From positions 1 to 64,000 of IMG/VR virus record IMGVR_UViG_3300010883_000019: a stretch of 64,000 nt of DNA. One strand, written 5' to 3'. The DNA is from a virus. Within the stretch, counting starts at the first letter, position 1, and the number at the start of each line of letters is the position of its first letter. Shown piece by piece: positions 47,626-56,775 of the stretch. Under the pieces are notes generated by a model. That model saw nothing but the letters and a program-made list of their open reading frames with translations. It did no database searches and was not told the origin of the DNA. A program made the translations under genes and the position numbers.

Positions 47626-47654
47626 TTGACAAGTCGTAAAAACAGAAGTATATT
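47626..47654 (+). promoter_or_regulatory. Sigma70-like promoter of the endolysin gene
   Basis: TTGACA (47626-47631), 17-bp spacer, TATATT (47649-47654). RNA would start near 47661, downstream of the first of two AGGGG ribosome sites. Confidence 0.75.
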
Positions 47655-47692
47655 AGGGGTACTTATGAGGCGAATTACAGGGGTACTTATGA
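47655..47692 (+). repeat. Duplicated ribosome-binding/start segment
   Basis: AGGGGTACTTATGA occurs at 47655-47668 and 47679-47692. The copies are 24 bp apart, so both ATGs (47665 and 47689) are in the same frame of the endolysin gene. Confidence 0.85.
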
Positions 47693-48159
47693 TACGTATC
47701 AGAAACATTCTATCAGGTGGCCTGACGATGGCAATGATGCTTTCGTTGGGCGCATGTATAACCATCGTTACTAAAGAATACGCAGAAGCTAAGGAATGCT
47801 TGGCATTAAATGTGTATCACGAAGCACGTGGCGAATCTGAAGAGGGACAGTACGCAGTGGCTCATGTTACTATGAACCGTGTGGATTCCTCTAAACATGG
47901 CAACACCGTATGCGAAGTTGTATACGCTCGTAAACAATTCTCTTGGACATGGCAGATAGATGATCATAGTCCCAAGGATCTTTATGCATATCACAAGGCT
48001 AAACTCATTGCCGACGATGTGTTGAGAGAACGTGTTGAAGACAATACTGGTGGTGCAGACCACTACCACGCAGACTACGTAAGTCCTAATTGGGCTACTG
48101 AAGAATACATGAATAAAACAACAACAATCGGAACCCACATCTTTTACAAAGCGAAATAA
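47689..48159 (+). CDS. Cell-wall hydrolase (SleB/Hydrolase_2-like endolysin) with N-terminal export signal
   Basis: 156 aa from ATG 47689, the start whose AGGGG site lies in the RNA made from the promoter at 47626; ATG 47665 would add eight basic residues. LALNVYHEARGESEEGQYAVAHVTMNRV is the hallmark of SleB-type peptidoglycan hydrolases with the catalytic Glu in HEARGE, and QFSWTW follows. A basic start and hydrophobic stretch (ILSGGLTMAMMLSLGACITIV) form a signal anchor or, with LGAC, a possible lipobox. It is the best endolysin candidate here; export would be host-dependent rather than holin-dependent. Confidence 0.85.
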   Translation: MIRIRNILSGGLTMAMMLSLGACITIVTKEYAEAKECLALNVYHEARGESEEGQYAVAHVTMNRVDSSKHGNTVCEVVYARKQFSWTWQIDDHSPKDLYAYHKAKLIADDVLRERVEDNTGGADHYHADYVSPNWATEEYMNKTTTIGTHIFYKAK

Positions 48160-48817: not shown

Positions 48818-48841
48818 ACATTAAATCAATGTCGCAGACTG

Positions 48842-48870
48842 TTGACACTTTAGGTGGTCTGTGATACTAT
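48842..48870 (+). promoter_or_regulatory. Sigma70-like promoter for tmRNA
   Basis: TTGACA (48842-48847), 17-bp spacer, TACTAT (48865-48870); GATACT at 48863 is an alternative -10. RNA would start near 48877, at the beginning of the acceptor piece. Confidence 0.72.
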
Positions 48871-48878
48871 ATAACTTG

Positions 48879-49190
48879 TAGACGTTGAAGCAACGTGGAC
48901 ACATTCTGGACTTGGGGGCAGTACCCAACGCCTCCACCACAAGCACATTACGCCTTACTGCAATAAGGTGTTTTTGCAGAGACACAGACCTCACGAGGGT
49001 TGAAGATGATGTGCTTTTGATGGGGGCGAACTAGGATCGACAGGTGTGAAAGTGAACGTGGAGTTTATCGGGTGACTGCGTAATTGGTCAAAACTACTAA
49101 ATGCAAACAATAACTTTGCTCCTTCTGAATTGCGCCTAGCGGCCTAATTTAAGGGGGTTGGCGACTTACCTAGCAACAGAAAAGTCGTAC
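48879..49190 (+). ncRNA. ssrA: Circularly permuted (two-piece) tmRNA gene
   Basis: The acceptor piece comes first. A hairpin (48882-48887 with 48891-48896) is followed by a T-arm-like stem TTGGG/CCCAA and CGCCTCC-A-CCA ending at 48939. The spacer 48940-49021 carries arms AAGCACAT (48941-48948) and ATGTGCTT (49009-49016), which would bring the pieces together for processing. The coding piece begins GGGGGCG at 49022-49028 and pairs over seven bases with CGCCTCC; AGGATCGACAGG is the conserved tmRNA 5' sequence. The tag frame 49103-49147 follows, then a hairpin (49162-49167 with 49182-49187). Permuted tmRNA is typical of Alphaproteobacteria. It rescues stalled ribosomes. The 3' end is approximate. 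Confidence 0.93.
49103..49147 (+). other. tmRNA tag reading frame
   Basis: The resume codon GCA starts the peptide ANNNFAPSELRLAA, ending in TAA. The AA(N/D)NFA start and LAA end are normal proteolysis-tag features recognised by ClpXP-type proteases. The SELR insert makes it a little longer than usual alphaproteobacterial tags. Confidence 0.88.
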
Positions 49191-49217
49191 TAACAATTAA
49201 CAAGGAATAACAAGAAC

Positions 49218-49985
49218 ATGAAACTATTAATCTCTTCTCTAGCAATGATTGCTATGTCAACAAGTGCATTTGGTGCGGATATCGCCGTAGATGCTGACAT
49301 TGACATCACAGAAAACACTGCGGGTAAGTATATCGCCACAAAGAAAATCGCTTTTGATGTGACTGCCGTAGGCGATGCCTTTGGTGGCGTCGAAGTAGTT
49401 GCTGGTGCAGACGACAAACTAGCAGTAGGCGACTGGAACGTAGGCCACGCAGTTGGTTCAGCTAGTCTGTCTTTTGGTAAACAAGGAAACCTTTTCGTAG
49501 AAGGTGAAGCTTCTGCCGCAAATAGCCCACTTGCAGATCCGTCTATGGGAACATCATTGCAAGCCGCTTGGTCTGGTGTAAGTGTAGGTCTCGCATTTAC
49601 TGATATCGGTACAGACGTAACAGACATTGCAAGTTTGCAAGGTGCTTACCAACTAGAACTTGGTGGTATTACAGCATCTACTTCTGCCGACTATAACATC
49701 AACACTAAAGATATTGCTGTTGGTGTGGGTTTTGGTCTTGAGATCAAGGACCAATCTGTTGATACCGTAATGACATACGCAAACGATGTATGGGCATACG
49801 AAGGCTCAACAACATTGCTTGGTATCACAGGTTACTTGAACGGTGACGAAAATGACCTGACACAGAACCTTGGTGGTTCTTATCTAATTGGTCTTAGTGA
49901 TGCCGCTTCTATCGAAAGCAAGCTTAACTACGACATGAATAGCGAACAATATTCACCTTCCTTGAATTTGTCCTTTTCATTCTAA
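49218..49985 (+). CDS. Outer-membrane beta-barrel (porin-like) protein
   Basis: 255 aa. A signal peptide (MKLLISSLAMIAMSTSAFG, cleavage before ADI) precedes alternating beta strands such as SLSFGKQGNLFVEGEA, GITASTSADYNI and AVGVGFGLEI. The last residue is Phe in LNLSFSF, the C-terminal signature for BAM-dependent insertion. About ten to twelve strands seem possible. It lies directly after the tmRNA gene and before a strong terminator, so it may share the tmRNA promoter. A phage porin could alter surface permeability or phage adsorption; role unknown. Confidence 0.78.
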   Translation: MKLLISSLAMIAMSTSAFGADIAVDADIDITENTAGKYIATKKIAFDVTAVGDAFGGVEVVAGADDKLAVGDWNVGHAVGSASLSFGKQGNLFVEGEASAANSPLADPSMGTSLQAAWSGVSVGLAFTDIGTDVTDIASLQGAYQLELGGITASTSADYNINTKDIAVGVGFGLEIKDQSVDTVMTYANDVWAYEGSTTLLGITGYLNGDENDLTQNLGGSYLIGLSDAASIESKLNYDMNSEQYSPSLNLSFSF

Positions 49986-50042: not shown

Positions 50043-50074
50043 AAAGGGGAATCTTCGGGTTCCCCTTTCTTTTT
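50043..50074 (+). terminator. Rho-independent terminator with UUCG tetraloop
   Basis: An eleven-base stem (50043-50053 with 50058-50068) closed by C(UUCG)G is followed by CTTTTT. It ends the tmRNA/porin transcript. Confidence 0.92.
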
Positions 50075-50075
50075 G

Positions 50076-50083
50076 TATAAATA
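50076..50083 (+). promoter_or_regulatory. T4-type late promoter TATAAATA of the curli island
   Basis: Exact TATAAATA two bases after the terminator T-tract. By T4 spacing RNA would start near 50089, at the ATG of the next gene, so that gene may be read from a leaderless message. Confidence 0.72.
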
Positions 50084-50088
50084 GGTGT

Positions 50089-50367
50089 ATGGATATATTT
50101 GCAATAATAGATAAAGTGGGATTTCCGATAGCTGGGGCAATGGCCGCAGGGGTGTTCGTGTTTATCACATTGAGGTTTATCCTAGCGAGTGTTACAGAAT
50201 CTGTAACAACTCTTAGAAGTATAATCGGTTCCCTTGACAATAGGGTGCAGACAATGAACAACGATTTAGTGAAAATTGATGCCTTACTTAGTTATGCTCT
50301 AAATGTCAAACCTAATATTGACCGTATTGCGGCTAACGAAGGTAAGGAAGACGCAAGGAGAGATTAA
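50089..50367 (+). CDS. Small membrane/coiled-coil protein, holin-like (copy 1)
   Basis: 92 aa. KVGFPIAGAMAAGVFVFITLRFIL (residues ~8-31) is a single membrane helix with a GFPIA start, then SIIGSLDNRVQTMNNDLVKIDALLSYAL is a coiled coil and the end is charged. This layout (short N-terminus out, one helix, coiled coil) occurs in phage holin-like and lysis-accessory proteins. The copy at 50606 has the same plan, so they are probably paralogues. Lysis or secretion-gate function is inferred. Confidence 0.65.
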   Translation: MDIFAIIDKVGFPIAGAMAAGVFVFITLRFILASVTESVTTLRSIIGSLDNRVQTMNNDLVKIDALLSYALNVKPNIDRIAANEGKEDARRD

Positions 50368-50604
50368 ATGATTTGGAAAGACTTGGTACTATCTAAGTTT
50401 AGTAATGGGTTTCGGATTCTCAATGGAAAGAACACAGATGATAAGTTCTTCGTTATTGATGATGTGAAACTCGAAATTGGTGATATGTTCAGAGTAGGTC
50501 CTAACGGATACTTTGAGAATGTTGGCAGTATACACGGTAATATTCATAATGAAGCTATTGATGATCAATCATATGCTTCTATAATTTATGAGAATAAGGA
50601 CTAG
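50368..50604 (+). CDS. Small soluble protein between the holin-like genes
   Basis: 78 aa, starting right after the first holin-like gene. FSNGFRILNGKNTDDKFFVIDDVKLEIGDMFRVGPNGYFENVGSIHGN looks like a small beta protein. No known family and no signal peptide. Confidence 0.58.
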   Translation: MIWKDLVLSKFSNGFRILNGKNTDDKFFVIDDVKLEIGDMFRVGPNGYFENVGSIHGNIHNEAIDDQSYASIIYENKD

Positions 50605-50605
50605 G

Positions 50606-50956
50606 ATGGATAGTGTAACCCAAGCTATAAGTGAATACGGCTTTCCTGTCGTTGCCTCTGTTGGCATGGGTTACTTTATCTACTTTATATGGAAGTGGGT
50701 TACGGAAACTATTGACCCTGTTATTGGCGAAACTATGATGACTCTGATACGGTTGGTCGATAGAGTTCGTATGCTTGATAATGATATGATAAGATTAAAC
50801 AGTAAGCTTTCGATGGTGTTGGAACATCGTGGCATGGATAATGAAGTTGCTAAGTTCCAATCGACGAGCGAAACACACAACTCAACAGGTCAAGCCGATG
50901 AAAAAGAAGATGATCCTAAGCCTAATAGCTTTGGTGTTACTCCCAACACAAAGTAA
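50606..50956 (+). CDS. Small membrane/coiled-coil protein, holin-like (copy 2)
   Basis: 116 aa from ATG 50606 with AAGGA 5 nt upstream; the ATG at 50588 lies inside the previous gene. SEYGFPVVASVGMGYFIYFIWKWV is a membrane helix, IRLVDRVRMLDNDMIRLNSKLSMVLEHR a coiled coil, then a polar tail. It parallels copy 1 (GFPIA/GFPVV, DNRVQTMNNDLVKI/DRVRMLDNDMIRL). Its last 59 nt are also used in another frame for the CsgF signal peptide. Confidence 0.65.
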   Translation: MDSVTQAISEYGFPVVASVGMGYFIYFIWKWVTETIDPVIGETMMTLIRLVDRVRMLDNDMIRLNSKLSMVLEHRGMDNEVAKFQSTSETHNSTGQADEKEDDPKPNSFGVTPNTK

Positions 50957-51362
50957 TGCGGAGTTAACTTTTACTTTTAAGAACCCTTCCTTTAGTGGGC
51001 AAGGATATTCGTCCCATGCACTATCTACTGAGCAATTACTGTTCAATAGGAATAAAGACCGAAAAGACGAAATGAGAGCGGAAGCTAATCGCATTGAGCG
51101 TGAGCTAGAGAATACTACATTAAACAAATTTATTAAGAACCTTGAGAGTAGAATATATGCGACACTGAGTAAACAGATGGTTGACTCCATGTTTGCGGAG
51201 TGTACAGGAGATGATTGCGCTAGTAGCGGATCTACAGAGATTGAGGGAAGTACGATTGAGTGGTCTAAAGATTCTACTACAGGATCTATCACCTTAGTCA
51301 TAACAAATGACGATGGTACTACAACCATTACTATTCCAGGATCAGGGGAGTTTAACTTCTGA
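50898..51362 (+). CDS. csgF: CsgF-like curli assembly factor
   Basis: 154 aa from the ATG at 50898, chosen because MKKKMILSLIALVLLPTQSNA is a complete signal peptide. Mature ELTFTFKNPSFSGQG matches the CsgF N-terminus (GTMTFQFRNPNFGG in E. coli), the part that plugs into the CsgG pore. A middle helical stretch (FIKNLESRIYATLSKQM) and a C-terminal beta region (SITLVITNDDGTTTITIPGSGEF) also follow CsgF. In bacteria CsgF sits at the cell surface and couples export to fibre nucleation. It overlaps csgG by one base. Confidence 0.88.
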   Translation: MKKKMILSLIALVLLPTQSNAELTFTFKNPSFSGQGYSSHALSTEQLLFNRNKDRKDEMRAEANRIERELENTTLNKFIKNLESRIYATLSKQMVDSMFAECTGDDCASSGSTEIEGSTIEWSKDSTTGSITLVITNDDGTTTITIPGSGEFNF

Positions 51363-52162
51363 TGCGTTTTGCTTTGATAACGATAATAGCATTACTTGCA
51401 GGTTGTGTGGATCCTTCGCAGTATCCTATAGGACAAGAGCCTGTGGTACAGGTTTCTCCTAATGATATTTCCGACTATCCTCAGATGGATGGTAAGATTA
51501 TGACCATTGCTGTTTATCAGTTTAAGGATATGACAGGACAGAGAAAGCCTAGCGGTGGGGGTGCAAGTTTAAGTAGTGCCGTTACTCAAGGTGCGGAAGT
51601 ATGGGTGATCAAAGCATTACAAGATGTTGGTCACGGAACATGGTTTGAGGTTGTTGAACGAGTTGGTCTTGACAATTTAATCAGAGAGAGACAGCTTGTT
51701 AGAAACACAAGAGAAGTCTATGAGAAGAACCTCGCAGACGGACCTACGCCTCTAAAGCCAATGGTATTTGCTGGTCTCATTCTTGAGGGTGGCATTGTTG
51801 GTTATGACTCAAGTGTGGCTACAGGTGGATCAGGTGCAAAGTATCTTGGTCTTGGTGTTCAACAACAATATAGAGTTGATACCGTCACAATAGTCATGAG
51901 ATTAGTTAGTGTTAACACAGGTAAGGTATTACTGAGTGTTGCTACTGAAAAGAACATAGCAAGTCACCAAACAGGTGCAGATATGTTCAAGTTCTTTGAT
52001 ATGGGAACTAAGTTAGTTGAAGCGGAAACTGGTTATAGTTTGAATGAACCAGTTAATTATGCAGTCAGATCAGCAATAGAAGCTGGCGTTATTGAACTTA
52101 TTAACGAAGGGAAAAACAGACAATTCTGGAAGTTTTTGGTAGATCCAAAGACTGGCGGATGA
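51362..52162 (+). CDS. csgG: CsgG-like curli secretion pore lipoprotein
   Basis: 266 aa (E. coli CsgG: 277 aa). IIALLAGC gives a lipobox with Cys 15. IMTIAVYQFKDMTGQRKPSGGGASLSSAVTQGAEVWVIKALQD, WFEVVERVGLDNLIRERQLVR, LEGGIVGYDSSVATGGSGAKYLGLGVQQQYRVDTVTIVMRLVSVNTGKVLLSV and IEAGVIELINEG match CsgG region by region, including both transmembrane hairpins. CsgG forms the nonameric outer-membrane channel of type VIII secretion. With CsgF it would make a complete secretion complex. CsgE is not seen. Confidence 0.95.
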   Translation: MRFALITIIALLAGCVDPSQYPIGQEPVVQVSPNDISDYPQMDGKIMTIAVYQFKDMTGQRKPSGGGASLSSAVTQGAEVWVIKALQDVGHGTWFEVVERVGLDNLIRERQLVRNTREVYEKNLADGPTPLKPMVFAGLILEGGIVGYDSSVATGGSGAKYLGLGVQQQYRVDTVTIVMRLVSVNTGKVLLSVATEKNIASHQTGADMFKFFDMGTKLVEAETGYSLNEPVNYAVRSAIEAGVIELINEGKNRQFWKFLVDPKTGG

Positions 52163-52174
52163 TAGGAAAGAACA

Positions 52175-52894
52175 ATGAAGTATTCATCAAAGTTTATACT
52201 ATTGGTATGCGCACTTTGTATACCACTGACACCGATTAATGCAAACGACATATACATAACACAGGTTGGCGACACTTTAGATTTGGACATTGTCCAAGAC
52301 GGTCAGAACAACACCATAGGTACTAGTCTACAAGATGTAGTTTTAGGATCTGTTAGTGGTGCTTCCGACTCTATGACATTCAGCATAACACAGACAGGTA
52401 ACTCGAACAGCATTACGGCACAAATTCTTGGTAGTACCTATGTAGGTACTTGGGACATATTGGGTAGTAATAACGAGATCGATCTTATGTGTTCTAGTGC
52501 CGCTGGGGGTAACTGTGATACTGTGACACTCAACATTGATGCCGATGGCGACAACCAAGACTATACAATCAATATTGGCGAAACCGCAGATGCGAGTAAC
52601 TCTACAATCAACTTCACAGTTGACGATAGCGGAAACGTTATCACAACAGATGTTGATGGTACAAGTGCGTCTATAACAGTAGCAATTGATAAGAACGCAA
52701 GTCTTGAAACGAGTAACAGCACATTAGACATTGACGTTTCTGGTGATGGAGATCTTAACGGACACACAATCAGTCTTGACCTAAAGGGTCGTGGGCATGC
52801 TGTTGTTATAAACCAAAGTGGTATATACGACAACGTAATTGATCTTCACACAAATGGCGATACACAAGCTATAAACATCACACAATCTGACTGA
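52175..52894 (+). CDS. Curlin-repeat protein (CsgA/CsgB-like), first
   Basis: 239 aa. A signal peptide (MKYSSKFILLVCALCIPLTPINA) is followed by repeats of hydrophobic-x-Q-x-G-x-x-N: YITQVGDTL, DIVQDGQNN, SITQTGNSN and NINIG-type variants, ending NITQSD. The repeats give the beta-arch stack of curli amyloid, and it is rich in Asp, Asn and Thr. It is 12 bp after csgG, so it is probably a secreted substrate. It has more degenerate repeats than E. coli CsgA, and could be a nucleator. Confidence 0.82.
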   Translation: MKYSSKFILLVCALCIPLTPINANDIYITQVGDTLDLDIVQDGQNNTIGTSLQDVVLGSVSGASDSMTFSITQTGNSNSITAQILGSTYVGTWDILGSNNEIDLMCSSAAGGNCDTVTLNIDADGDNQDYTINIGETADASNSTINFTVDDSGNVITTDVDGTSASITVAIDKNASLETSNSTLDIDVSGDGDLNGHTISLDLKGRGHAVVINQSGIYDNVIDLHTNGDTQAINITQSD

Positions 52895-54027
52895 TGTTAA
52901 AGTACTTTTTATTATTAGTGTGTATGTCTACTTCGGCATATGCAAACATTGGCGAGATTGCCCAACTTAAAGGTAAAGAAGGTGGTGCGGCGATTGAGCG
53001 TGATAACTCCGAAATAAGTGCGGAGAAGGGTACTGGAATACAAATGGATGATACGGCAGTTACGGCTAACTCTGCCATGACTATCAACTTCATTGATGAG
53101 ACAAGAGTTGACATAACAGAACACTCACGTCTCATCATTGATGACTTTGTTTATGACCCATCTACTGGAAAGGGATCACTTGGTCTCAAAGCAAGTTTAG
53201 GAACAATCCGATACGCAAGTGGTCAGATTGCTAAAAATAGTAGACAGAGGGTAAGAATACGAACTCCATCTGCAACGATTGGTGTTCGTGGCACAGACTT
53301 CATTATGGTTGTAGATGAAACAGGTAGTAGTATGGTCACATTACTTCCAAGTTGTGATGCCGCAGGTATGTGCTACACAGGAGAGATAACAGTCGAGACA
53401 GATGCTGGATTTGTCGTACTTAATAAAGCATTTCAAGTTACGGTAGCATCAACTAGTAACAATAAACCAACACCACCACTTTTGTTGGACATTGATGAAA
53501 GCATGATCAACCAACTGTTGATCCTACGTAAGAAGAACCCATACTTTGAAGAGCAAAGTAGAATTCTAATTGAGAAACGACAGGCCGCAGACTTTCTTGG
53601 GTTAGACTTTTTACAGTATGAGGGATTGGACTATGACGCCTTAGTTGATTCAATAGAGGGAATTTGGCTTACTGAACTCGACTTGGACGTAGACTACCTT
53701 AAAGACTTACTGTATGATATGTTAGATCAATTGAATGAGGCATTAAAGAGATTGTTTAGTGATGAGCTTGCCGATCAGAATGCAATGCTACTAAGACAGG
53801 AAGCGAATATATACGGATTAGATCCATTGACAGGTATCTCCTTACTAAACCAAACACCTAATTGGGTGTTCTCTAGAAGAAATGATAGCGGAGAAAACTT
53901 CGTACAACTAAGATTAAATCAGGCATATGGTTATACCATAGATCTGCAACAGAACGATTGGGAGTTATATGACTACAGGTTGGGGGATAACACTGGCAAC
54001 TCTATTGACATTTATCAGCAACGCTAG
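52894..54027 (+). CDS. FecR-domain secreted protein
   Basis: 377 aa. Signal peptide (MLKYFLLLVCMSTSAYA) then a FecR domain at ~20-165: GIQMDDTAVTANSAMTINFIDETRVDITEHSRLIIDDFVYDP, GSLGLKASLGTIRYASG and IRTPSATIGVRGTDF. The middle region is helical and acidic, and the final ~50 residues (FVQLRLNQAYGYTIDLQQNDW, DNTGNSIDIYQQR) look like curlin-type strands. FecR proteins are usually periplasmic sensors or surface scaffold proteins. In bacteria FecR proteins occur next to CHASE2 cyclases. Its end overlaps the next curlin gene by 59 nt. Confidence 0.85.
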   Translation: MLKYFLLLVCMSTSAYANIGEIAQLKGKEGGAAIERDNSEISAEKGTGIQMDDTAVTANSAMTINFIDETRVDITEHSRLIIDDFVYDPSTGKGSLGLKASLGTIRYASGQIAKNSRQRVRIRTPSATIGVRGTDFIMVVDETGSSMVTLLPSCDAAGMCYTGEITVETDAGFVVLNKAFQVTVASTSNNKPTPPLLLDIDESMINQLLILRKKNPYFEEQSRILIEKRQAADFLGLDFLQYEGLDYDALVDSIEGIWLTELDLDVDYLKDLLYDMLDQLNEALKRLFSDELADQNAMLLRQEANIYGLDPLTGISLLNQTPNWVFSRRNDSGENFVQLRLNQAYGYTIDLQQNDWELYDYRLGDNTGNSIDIYQQR

Positions 54028-54742
54028 TTGGTCTAATGAGGTTTATGTGAGGCAAGTTGGTGATAATACAGACATGACCATCACTCAAGATGGTGCTAAC
54101 AATAAGATAACTGGTTCGGGCGGTAAGGCTCAAGTGAGTGGTAACAACACAAGCACTACATATGCGCAAACAGGTGACAATAATCAAGCGTGGGTATGGA
54201 TGAGTTCTGGTAATGGAATAAACAATCTGTCGCAAACAGGTGATAACAACTCAGCAAGTTTAGATTGCCATGGTAATAATTGTGTTATTGATATTGAACA
54301 AAATGGCAATTATAACCTTGCAAATGGCGAACTAGGTAATGGTGGTGATAATGATCAAACTATTGTTATTGATCAAGACGGTGATTACAATAGTGCGAAA
54401 ATAGAAGCAAACGGTGATGACAATACTATTACTGTAGACCAAGATGGTAATACCCATGAAGCAGATATCATGGTTAGTGGTGATGATAATGACGTGCTGT
54501 TGACACAGACAGGATCATCCAAATACGCATTTCTCGATATGTTAGGCTCACCCCATGATTTCGATATATCTCAGACAGGATCTGGCAACCATTCTGTGAG
54601 TATAGATATTGAAACAGGAAGTAATGCAATGGCAGATATTAACTCTACACAGTACGGATCTAACAGTATGACATATTCTGTTGTGGGAACTTGTTTTCTT
54701 GATACTGGTTGCGCACTTAACATAGACCAGAACGGTAACTAA
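53969..54742 (+). CDS. Curlin-repeat protein (CsgA-like), second
   Basis: 257 aa. The ATG has GGAG upstream; the signal peptide (MTTGWGITLATLLTFISNASWS) is encoded over the FecR C-terminus. About ten repeats follow: TITQDGANN, TYAQTGDNN, NLSQTGDNN, DIEQNGNYN, VIDQDGDYN, TVDQDGNTH, LLTQTGSSK, DISQTGSGN, and a final NIDQNGN. This is a clear curlin array and the best fibre-subunit candidate. It is acidic. The stop overlaps the cyclase start. Confidence 0.9.
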   Translation: MTTGWGITLATLLTFISNASWSNEVYVRQVGDNTDMTITQDGANNKITGSGGKAQVSGNNTSTTYAQTGDNNQAWVWMSSGNGINNLSQTGDNNSASLDCHGNNCVIDIEQNGNYNLANGELGNGGDNDQTIVIDQDGDYNSAKIEANGDDNTITVDQDGNTHEADIMVSGDDNDVLLTQTGSSKYAFLDMLGSPHDFDISQTGSGNHSVSIDIETGSNAMADINSTQYGSNSMTYSVVGTCFLDTGCALNIDQNGN

Positions 54743-56775
54743 TGAAGAAACTATTGAGTCCTTGGTGGGCAATATTAACCCTAGCAGTTTTAGTATATAC
54801 GTTTGTATATCCGTCTAACTTTGTACAAAGCATTAGACTGAACTATTTTGATCAACTGATCATTAACCAAGAGCCTGTAGATAATAACATCTATGTTGCA
54901 GAGATAGATGAAGAAGCTTTAAACAAATATGGTCAATACCCCTTTCCAAGAAACGTTTATGGTGATATAATAAAAGGTTTATATGATTCGGGTGCGGGTC
55001 TTGTGGTCTGGACAATCATGATGCCAGAAGAGGATCGTTTAGGTGGTGATGCATATATGGGTGATATTCTATACGATTATCCTGTAGTCCTAGCTTCACG
55101 CCCATCAGACAAAACTAAGAACGAACCTATCAATCCTGGTGCGGCTATTATCAATCCAGAGCATTTGCATGCAATTCTTCCATACGATGGCATAATTGCT
55201 AACGTCCCAATCATAGAACAAAACTCTGTTGGTGCAGGGATCATTAGCACAGAACCAGAGATAGATGGTGTGGTTAGACGTATGCCAACCGTAGCAATGG
55301 TTGATGGTACACTATACCCTAGCCTAGCACTTGAGACATTACGTGTTCTTGCAGGCGACATTAGCTTTCAAATCAAATTACAGCCCAACGGTATAGAGAA
55401 GATGAGGATCCCTCAGTTCGGTATTATCCCAACTGACAGTGAAGGTCGTGTCTGGATCGATTGGAGCCAAAAGAGTAAGAGAGTGTCCATAACGGATCTA
55501 CCAAACTTTGATGGTGCAGTTGTTATCGTTGACGTGACAGCCGCAGGTATAGCCAATCCTACCCCAACTGCTATGGGATCTGTATATGCAGGGGAAGTCC
55601 AAGCGGCAGTTCTAGGCACAATGTTTAATGGAACTAACATCCAACGTCCCGATTGGGCACCAATGGCGGAACTACTTGCTATTGTGATTGGTGGCTTGGC
55701 TCTAATTGCACTAAGCAAATGGATGATAGTAGGACTGATTGCGACAGGTGTTCTTATCGGTTCTGTCATACCATATTCAATGTACATGTATAATACAGAG
55801 AAGATGCTAATAGATGTGACAGCACCTACCATAGTCTTTGTGATCATAGCATTGCAAGTATATGGTATTAAGTTTGTTAGAGAGTTCCTAGAGAAACAAG
55901 CAATTAAGAAACAATTCGGTGGATATGCTTCACCAGAAGTTGTGGAGTTACTACAGAAGAACCCACAACTAATTAAAGAAGGTCGGAAGAAAAAAGTAAG
56001 CATTGTATTTTCTGATCTTAGAGGTTTCACCCCATTGGGTGAATCGTTCGGAGATGATGTTAAAGGTTTGACAACAGTGATGAACAGTTACATGGATGCA
56101 ATAACACAACCTGTGCTAGATGCCAACGGAATGATCATCAAATATATCGGTGACGCAACTATGCACATACACAACGCTCCAATCCCAGATCCCAGTCATC
56201 CAAAGACTGCGGTACAGGTTGGACTAAACATGCTAAAAGCAGTGGAGAAATTTAATGAAAAACTTATGGAACAAGGTAAACCGCAAGTCGGTATGGGTGC
56301 TGGCATTAATACTGGCCTTGGTTATATTGGAGAGATGGGTTCTACATCCAGACACTCCTATGATATCCTCGGAGACAGTGTCAGTACAGCCGCTCGACTA
56401 GAGAGCGCATGCAAAGGGTATGGGGTTCTATTAATTGTGGGACCCCATACCTACGAGCTAACGCAAAATGATTTCTTTTATTTACAACTTGACAATCTTG
56501 CCGTTAAGGGTAAGACTGTAGGGTTAACGATTTATACGGTATTAGACATTGACCTTAACAAACATGGTGTGGATATGCTCAATCACAACACTATGCACAA
56601 CTTCTATGCAACACAGCACTTTGACGAAGCTATCTACATCTGTAAAGATATGAAGGGTAAGTTCGAAGGCAAGATGGATGACTATTATGACATCTGGATT
56701 GAACGTTGTGAGTATATGAAGACACAAGATCTCCCAAAGGATTGGGATGGGATCTTTAGAGCAACCACAAAATAA
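54742..56775 (+). CDS. CHASE2-domain class III nucleotide cyclase
   Basis: 677 aa. An N-terminal membrane helix (WWAILTLAVLVYTFVY) is followed by an extracytoplasmic CHASE2 sensor (~30-310) and a cluster of membrane helices (~310-375). A class III catalytic domain spans ~415-600: VSIVFSDLRGFT with metal Asp 425, YIGDATM with Asp 471, INTG, and SYDILGDSVSTAARLE. A Lys before YIGD and Asp before ILGD favour ATP, so cAMP is the likely product. The last ~75 residues are an extra helical region. It is coupled to the curlin gene. Confidence 0.92.
   Translation: MKKLLSPWWAILTLAVLVYTFVYPSNFVQSIRLNYFDQLIINQEPVDNNIYVAEIDEEALNKYGQYPFPRNVYGDIIKGLYDSGAGLVVWTIMMPEEDRLGGDAYMGDILYDYPVVLASRPSDKTKNEPINPGAAIINPEHLHAILPYDGIIANVPIIEQNSVGAGIISTEPEIDGVVRRMPTVAMVDGTLYPSLALETLRVLAGDISFQIKLQPNGIEKMRIPQFGIIPTDSEGRVWIDWSQKSKRVSITDLPNFDGAVVIVDVTAAGIANPTPTAMGSVYAGEVQAAVLGTMFNGTNIQRPDWAPMAELLAIVIGGLALIALSKWMIVGLIATGVLIGSVIPYSMYMYNTEKMLIDVTAPTIVFVIIALQVYGIKFVREFLEKQAIKKQFGGYASPEVVELLQKNPQLIKEGRKKKVSIVFSDLRGFTPLGESFGDDVKGLTTVMNSYMDAITQPVLDANGMIIKYIGDATMHIHNAPIPDPSHPKTAVQVGLNMLKAVEKFNEKLMEQGKPQVGMGAGINTGLGYIGEMGSTSRHSYDILGDSVSTAARLESACKGYGVLLIVGPHTYELTQNDFFYLQLDNLAVKGKTVGLTIYTVLDIDLNKHGVDMLNHNTMHNFYATQHFDEAIYICKDMKGKFEGKMDDYYDIWIERCEYMKTQDLPKDWDGIFRATTK

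Follow-up and report, generated by a model that had tools for sequence, protein, structure and literature searches.

We analysed a window of 64,000 nucleotides (nt) of a marine bacteriophage, taken from a virus record of 70,303 bases (positions 1 to 64,000 of IMG/VR record IMGVR_UViG_3300010883_000019), for an island of curli-type (type VIII secretion) genes. CsgF, CsgG, two curlin-type proteins, a FecR-fold protein and a CHASE2-class III cyclase are encoded in a single compact block on the + strand, and the island begins at position 50089 with two paralogous genes for small membrane proteins. The first-pass annotation of this DNA, made from the sequence alone, had listed the six genes of the block, which stand, and had overlooked the pair of small membrane proteins and the changed active site of the cyclase; its block start at 50829 is corrected to 50089, and the curli genes, which it called fused to a FecR-CHASE2 cyclase pair, are linked to that pair.

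The genes lie as close together as first described. Stop and start codons overlap at 51360-51364, 52892-52896 and 54740-54744, and the start of the second curlin gene sits within the 3' end of fecR. Pfam matches above the curated cut-offs were obtained for CsgF, CsgG, FecR, Curlin_rpt (in curlin 2), CHASE2 and Guanylate_cyc, in agreement with the gene identities proposed at first. The window's DNA polymerase is nearest to those of phage C48C1 (56%) and of cyanophages, and its major capsid protein is 68% identical to that of C48C1, 65% to that of Melnitz and 63% to that of HTVC008M. By these sequence comparisons the phage is T4-like and near Kyanoviridae.

The GC content of the island (40.5%) is like that of the window (41.2%). 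The eight-gene block was found again on two IMG/VR contigs, L005 and L008, with a 99% identical FecR protein, and on the 159,934-base contig L358, whose cyclase is 100% identical to that of the window. A survey of other phages for this gene order found it in HTVC008M and Melnitz-3 and on further viral contigs. HTVC008M and Melnitz have the same eight genes in the same order, with 46-52% identity for CsgF, CsgG, curlin 1 and FecR. The presence of the block on several viral contigs and in two cultured phages led us to reject a chimera or contamination, and the phage setting described at first is upheld.

An exact TATAAATA, a T4-type late promoter core, is located at 50076..50083 (+), 5 nt ahead of the first start codon. 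The window contains 13 copies, all on the + strand, against 4.2 expected (maximum in 100 shuffles: 11), and an exact copy was detectable at most 120 nt upstream of the small protein 1 gene in 43 of 104 loci. These results bear out the late-type promoter proposed earlier. Before the island, at 50043..50068 (+), lies an intrinsic-terminator-like hairpin with a TTCG loop and a T-rich tail. Inside the block, terminator-like sites on the + strand occur at 51341-51363 and 56299-56316; as the region holds six such sites in total and 4.8 were expected, the earlier claim of no internal terminator is neither shown nor contradicted.

The FecR alignment yielded 80 viral loci among the matches listed, with more than 520 relatives besides. 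These 80 loci, many of which lie on truncated contigs, contained FecR (80), curlin 1 (80), CsgG (79), CsgF (76), curlin 2 (72), the small pair (64) and the cyclase (60). With the cyclase as anchor, 27 of 80 loci were scored (at least 8 kb before and at least 6 kb after the cyclase; the other 53 were left unscored), and these contained the small pair in 27/27 and CsgG in 25/27 cases. Because the FecR-, pair- and cyclase-anchored scans overlap in many contigs and are biased towards close relatives, they are not independent samples. The ratio of nonsynonymous to synonymous substitution rates (dN/dS) could be computed for 15 of 24 gene-by-relative comparisons, the synonymous rate (dS) being saturated in the others. 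It was 0.06-0.17 in 12 comparisons and highest for curlin 2 (0.29-0.40 in three). We conclude from these sequence data that the gene block is kept by selection in many phages.

We consider it probable that the island is a phage-encoded curli-type (type VIII) module for fibre export, expressed late and equipped with envelope sensing. Fibre export is preferred over a bare pore because curlin 1 and the FecR protein stand stably beside the pore gene, and envelope sensing is proposed because the FecR protein is paired with CHASE2.

The small membrane protein pair

Small membrane protein 1 (50089..50367, +; 92 amino acids) has one predicted membrane segment, which is strongly hydrophobic, and a conserved C-terminal tail; its C-terminal half is near-invariant among 111 distinct pairs. 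Small membrane protein 2 (50606..50956, +; 116 amino acids) is a longer paralogue with a similar hydrophobic segment and the same coiled-coil-like core. Both were assigned to phrog_18771, a family without function annotation, and PDB searches with the two proteins gave coiled-coil matches or none.

The pair was present in all 64 of the 80 FecR-anchored loci whose contig is not cut at the island. It stood directly before csgF in 43, inverted directly after the cyclase in 19 and otherwise in two (L060 and L069). In each of the 16 loci without it, one contig end lies 0 to 368 nt beyond the outermost island gene detected. When the scan started from the pair, a second island gene was found in 70 of 76 new loci for small protein 1 and in 54 of 58 for small protein 2, and in the ten loci without one the contig ends 0 to 1,062 nt past the pair. 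A tblastn search of 50,697 phage records matched the pair in the HTVC008M and Melnitz records only, barring one 24% match with an E value of 0.8, and gave no match in kin without a CsgG match, such as C48C1 and Mosig. Contig L091, from a Rickettsiales metagenome-assembled genome (MAG), has the small pair together with a CHASE2 cyclase and a match to FecR, while the 2.0 Mb genome gave no csgG match; L091 is probably a phage contig.

A histidine kinase as the identity of the small proteins found no support. The Pfam families listed for 53 pair members included no histidine-kinase core domain (this covers 8/8 families for small protein 1 and 25/27 for small protein 2), and HATPase_c was found in 0/4 phage records, the control being positive in 14/14 genomes. 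Small protein 2 gave one weak CovS-type HAMP match (E 0.15), and small protein 1 very weak matches to the YvrJ family (11 of 28 members, best E 0.07).

Small protein 2 also weakly matched the holin family phrog_4898 of the PHROG database (16 of 25 members, best E 1.1e-4). This similarity bears on an alternative in which the island times lysis: CsgG, alone or with CsgF, would be a gated pore, as in the pinholin idea published by Buchholz et al. (PMC9004378), the small pair would be its holin-like partners and the curlins would be passengers. A predicted endolysin about 2 kb upstream (47626-48159) and changes at the positions that correspond to the E. coli pore constriction fit this account. Against it, curlin 1 was present in 80/80 FecR-anchored loci, with a dN/dS of 0.17 in the sole computable comparison of three. 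Moreover, among the phage records searched the pair was matched, apart from the one 24% match, only in island carriers and not in C48C1 or Mosig, and a general lysis holin of this phage group is therefore disfavoured. We regard lysis timing as unlikely.

In the accessible parts of the literature on FecR-CHASE2, phage cyclases and curli, retention modules, class III cyclase sites and YvrJ, we found no account of the small pair or of the cyclase site change described below.

Pore, curlin, FecR and cyclase proteins

CsgF (50898..51362, +; 154 amino acids; Pfam 1.4e-14) has a signal-peptide-like start, which is probably the ATG at 50898. A three-row CsgF profile found no PDB chain at E 0.1, and this weighs against the assignment. 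CsgG (51362..52162, +; Pfam 1.6e-49), the outer-membrane pore, has a lipoprotein-like start and matched PDB chains of E. coli CsgG at 1e-49; at the pore constriction, as aligned with E. coli CsgG, the window has other residues. The position aligned with what we take to be residue Phe56 of E. coli CsgG was Leu in 81 of 88 scored sequences (97 were collected, including a small number from bacteria, and 9 without the motif dropped). CsgE was found in 0/4 phage records, two of which have the same island, and the control was positive in E. coli. As CsgE is reported not to be essential for curli (PMC7029224), we call the system type VIII-like rather than E. coli-type.

Both the lack of CsgE in these records and the Leu at the pore position would suit an ungated CsgGF pore that admits nutrients, siderophores or cofactors to the infected cell (PMC7029224, PMC9599517). 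Such a function would leave CsgF, both curlins and the FecR protein, all kept beside CsgG, without an explanation, and we think it very unlikely. Two further CsgG matches were seen in other phage sequences. One is a distant CsgG-like gene (28-29% identity) of Brevundimonas jumbo phages (L004:5872-6762), for which the other island genes were not detected; the other is a 40% match in OR851715.1 (Salmonella phage S.Kent 1-2-1, 1,499 bases), which may be bacterial DNA.

The two curlin-type proteins differ in how their length varies among relatives. Curlin-type protein 1 (52175..52894, +) is length-constant, with a stop-to-stop length of 225-265 residues in 90 of 92 sequences and outliers of 115 and 387. 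It is 46-49% identical to the HTVC008M and Melnitz copies, and its Melnitz orthologue matches Curlin_rpt at 8.6e-6. It has three Q-motifs, a number reached by 2/500 shuffles, and was modelled as a beta-solenoid with a mean predicted local distance difference test score (pLDDT) of 84 and Z ~17 to beta-helix proteins. Curlin-repeat protein 2 (53969..54742, +) matches Curlin_rpt at 5.5e-25 in seven stretches and varies from 109 to 554 residues, stop to stop, across 102 sequences. Even in two relatives with a 99% identical FecR protein, curlin 2 has 148 residues, compared with 266 in L358, which has the window's sequence (both stop to stop). A PA14 domain was found in curlin 2 of HTVC008M and, when 10 further copies were scanned, in one of them, that of L062. 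On the basis of the curlin lengths, the dN/dS of curlin 2 and the presence of PA14, we suggest that curlin 1 may be a constant fibre part and curlin 2 a variable, exposed part.

The exported FecR-fold protein (52894..54027, +; Pfam FecR 4.6e-10) consists of a FecR/anchor fold, a helical linker and a C-terminal beta domain, and its length was 368-404 residues among the scored rows. It has a short signal-like start, with the FecR fold from about residue 16, and no hydrophobic 19-residue window above 1.6 that would indicate a membrane helix. The FecI/FecR iron regulator has a cytoplasmic anti-sigma domain and a membrane helix before the FecR domain. The island protein is without these two parts, and a role as iron regulator has no support beyond the name. 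Its model resembled two known FecR folds, that of PupR (Z 10.3 over 111 residues, 2.7 A) and that of BDI_1681 (Z 8.8); residues 16-113 matched the 'cell surface anchoring domain' 5ix9 (Z 7.6, 73/76 residues) below the tool's safe level. The C-terminal beta domain is well modelled (pLDDT 77-87) and has a curlin-like motif at its end, a mere hint that this terminus is curlin-like. A Foldseek search of solved structures gave nothing at E<=0.001 for the curlin 1 or FecR model.

The cyclase (54742..56775, +) has an intact CHASE2 domain (Pfam 4e-31) and an intact catalytic domain (Guanylate_cyc 1.4e-18). We compared 100 distinct cyclases, 83 of them viral (including L086, L087 and L091, phage-like contigs binned in MAGs) and 17 bacterial. 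The metal Asp pair, Lys and Arg (D425, D471, K467 and R552) were present in 83/83 viral sequences. Position 541 presumably serves base recognition, and position 548 is taken to be that of the transition-state Asn. The window has D541/S548. Among the viral cyclases the states at 541/548 were D/S in 61, S/N in 17, T/N in 4 and D/N in 1, whereas 16/17 bacterial cyclases have S or T at 541 with N at 548; a second sample of 65, which overlaps the first, gave 56 D/S and 9 T/N. In a quick maximum-likelihood tree with columns 541 and 548 left out, the D/S rows need two changes, the D/N row (L069) lies within the group, and the window and Melnitz belong to the D/S group with HTVC008M outside. The counts and the tree indicate that the changes at 541 and 548 go together. 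The D/S cyclases of the window, L006 and L013 are constrained, with a dN/dS of 0.09-0.10 in the two computable comparisons of three.

That the protein makes a cyclic nucleotide, as first claimed, is made less certain by the changed active site, with Ser548 at the position of the transition-state Asn of normally active class III cyclases. The cyclase could itself be the purpose of the island and the fibre genes its input, an envelope alarm that alters host physiology or slows lysis via cyclic AMP or another product. The constraint on the cyclase would fit such a role, the small pair is as close to the cyclase as csgG or closer (27/27 versus 25/27), and FecR with a CHASE2 cyclase is a known bacterial cluster: CHASE2 cyclases are clustered with a FecR-domain outer-membrane protein in Campylobacterota (PMC9239204). 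On the other hand, a cyclic-nucleotide-binding domain was found in 0/4 phage records, the catalytic Asn position is changed in 61/83 cyclases and locus L074 runs on for 7.2 kb past curlin 2 without a cyclase, its other end being cut. We judge this role improbable. Somewhat less doubtful, though still unlikely, is that marine phages rebuilt a curli-FecR-cyclase operon into an envelope machine of a new kind: the small pair, undetected in the bacterial version, would couple the cyclase to the fibre exporter, and in the window's group D541/S548 would give the cyclase a new catalytic behaviour (rate, nucleotide or reaction), with a late signal tied to fibre export.

Known relatives and proposed function

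Wittmers et al. 2022 (PMC9599517) described the full set in podo- and myo-pelagiphages, with its distribution and metatranscriptome expression. The combination with curlins, FecR and cyclase, which the first-pass annotation had singled out for checking, was thus already printed in 2022. Their type VIII secretion system (T8SS, Curli) module has the order CsgF, CsgG, CsgA/B, FecR, CsgA/B, adenylate cyclase, as in the window, and in the accessible text CsgE is unreported, as none was found in the phage records here. It differs, by description, in the 'histidine kinase' before csgF, where we found two membrane proteins of 92-116 amino acids without a kinase domain, and in that the small pair is inverted after the cyclase in 19/80 loci here. 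The 541/548 change was not found in the same text. Zaragoza-Solas et al. 2020 (PMC7029224) reported CsgF, CsgG and neighbours and proposed sibling capture, and Buchholz et al. 2022 (PMC9004378) proposed a pinholin-like pore. The link of CsgG and CsgF to SAR11 myophages, mentioned at first, is supported: HTVC008M carries both, and the papers report them. Superinfection exclusion, aggregation and permeability, the uses suggested at first, have also been proposed in print (PMC9004378, PMC7029224, PMC9599517). The module is therefore known in kind and the window is a further member.

The cyclase of HTVC008M is only 34% identical to that of the window and has the site S/N, whereas that of Melnitz is 50% identical and has D/S; the PA14 domain in curlin 2 is a further difference of HTVC008M. 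Melnitz is said to lack csgA and csgB (Buchholz et al., PMC9004378). Contrary to this statement, the Melnitz-3 record contains two annotated curlin-repeat proteins, both with a Pfam match. E. coli curli (type VIII) shares CsgG, CsgF and curlin repeats with the window, whose module includes the small pair, the cyclase and the FecR protein as well, has no detected CsgE and differs in the aligned constriction residues of the pore.

A cellular counterpart was found in two Caulobacteraceae MAGs. Contig L089 carries csgF, csgG, two curlins, FecR and a CHASE2 cyclase in a row between ordinary chromosomal flanks, and L090 is alike. Identity between the window and L089 was 45% for CsgG, 35% for CsgF, 35% for FecR and 38% over 691 columns for the cyclase. 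Unlike in the window, the flanks are bacterial, both curlins precede FecR and the cyclase site is T/N; small protein 1 had no match in the genomes of L089 or L090. The abstract of Wittmers et al. places the kinase and cyclase outside bacterial curli operons, and their discussion does likewise for FecR where canonical operons are concerned (PMC9599517). The L089/L090 operon, with its FecR and cyclase, is an exception to this statement, and a rare one. The idea that FecR and cyclase generally belong to curli loci of Alphaproteobacteria is not supported: CsgG was found at E<=1e-30 in 4 of 240 genomes, and in three of these the 18-19 kb read contained no match to FecR or cyclase; in the family of genome G001 CsgG was found in 19/249 and a FecR match in two at E<=1e-30, a strict cut. 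In the cyclase tree, for which long-branch warnings were given, the two bacterial sequences fall within the viral diversity, in a group with three viral ones, and for this reason bacteria may have gained the operon from phages. The Caulobacteraceae operon suggests a cellular relative with FecR and cyclase already in curli, which would make the question of what the cyclase senses testable in bacteria.

Under the fibre-export reading, the curlins would cross the inner membrane via the host Sec system late in infection, exit through CsgGF and form surface fibres. Curlin 1 would supply the constant part of the fibre, and curlin 2, which has PA14 in some phages, a variable and perhaps adhesive part. 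The FecR-fold protein would be periplasmic, would anchor the fibre or sense export, and would signal to the CHASE2 sensor domain, and the cyclase would pass the state of the envelope or fibre to the cytoplasm. The small membrane protein pair may be an inner-membrane part of the assembly and a phage addition.

Several observations weigh against fibre export with envelope sensing. Curlin 1 had no Pfam curlin match in the window or in the HTVC008M copy, and its model is closer to other beta-helix proteins than to curli (CsgA fibril at Foldseek rank 46, E=2). The FecR model is weak overall (pLDDT 69; predicted template modelling score, pTM, 0.40), and in hhalign its C-terminus had curlin 2 as the best of six targets with a probability of 12%. 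CsgE and the cyclic-nucleotide-binding domain, each undetected in the four phage records, and the Ser at the catalytic Asn position of the cyclase, all given above, count in the same direction. Melnitz-infected cells showed no clumping in cytograms or transmission electron microscopy (TEM) under the conditions used (Buchholz et al., PMC9004378).

The likeliest benefit, which is a guess and may well be wrong, would be a coat on infected cells or their clumping, which would block competing phages or hold new hosts near. Such a surface-fibre exporter is reported to be lacking in the host clades SAR11 and OM43 (PMC9004378, PMC7029224). If fibre export is true, an exporter supplied by the virus would alter the encounters of abundant ocean bacteria with one another and with other phages. 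The small pair, if as obligate as it seems, is the least understood part of this published module. The present analysis adds this pair, the six-gene operon of Caulobacteraceae, the D/S change of the cyclase, the length variation of curlin 2 and the exported FecR fold without the cytoplasmic part of the regulator.

Flanking features and variant loci

In the window and in L006, only 5 nt separate TATAAATA from the start codon of small protein 1, and a transcript from this site might, judging by the spacing, be leaderless. As a general rule, a leaderless start was rejected because the distance from TATAAATA to the ATG varies from -1 to 76 nt in 43 loci. Upstream of the island, a phage transfer-messenger RNA (tmRNA) gene is located at 48838-49238 (+), with a match to Rfam alpha_tmRNA at 48838-49191 (E 1.3e-30) and further matches to permuted tmRNA; ARAGORN gave the tag ANNNFAPSELRLAA. 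In Melnitz-3, too, a tmRNA precedes the curli genes. The stretch from the window's tmRNA to the terminator encodes, at 49218-49985 (+), a 255-amino-acid protein with a signal-like start; Pfam and PHROG gave no match for it, and it resembles an exported beta protein. The predicted endolysin at 47626-48159 (+) is cell-wall-hydrolase-like (phrog_938, E 3.7e-28).

The two small protein genes are separated by an open reading frame (ORF) of 78 amino acids (50368..50604, +), and by eye a similar ORF follows the Melnitz-3 cyclase. Island order is not absolute: the cyclase gene is inverted relative to the csg genes in L060, L058, L063, L083, L222 and L224. Between curlin 2 and the cyclase, L016 encodes a radical SAM protein with a weak SPASM match (L016:10086-11219) and L066 a NifU-like protein (L066:10441-10920).

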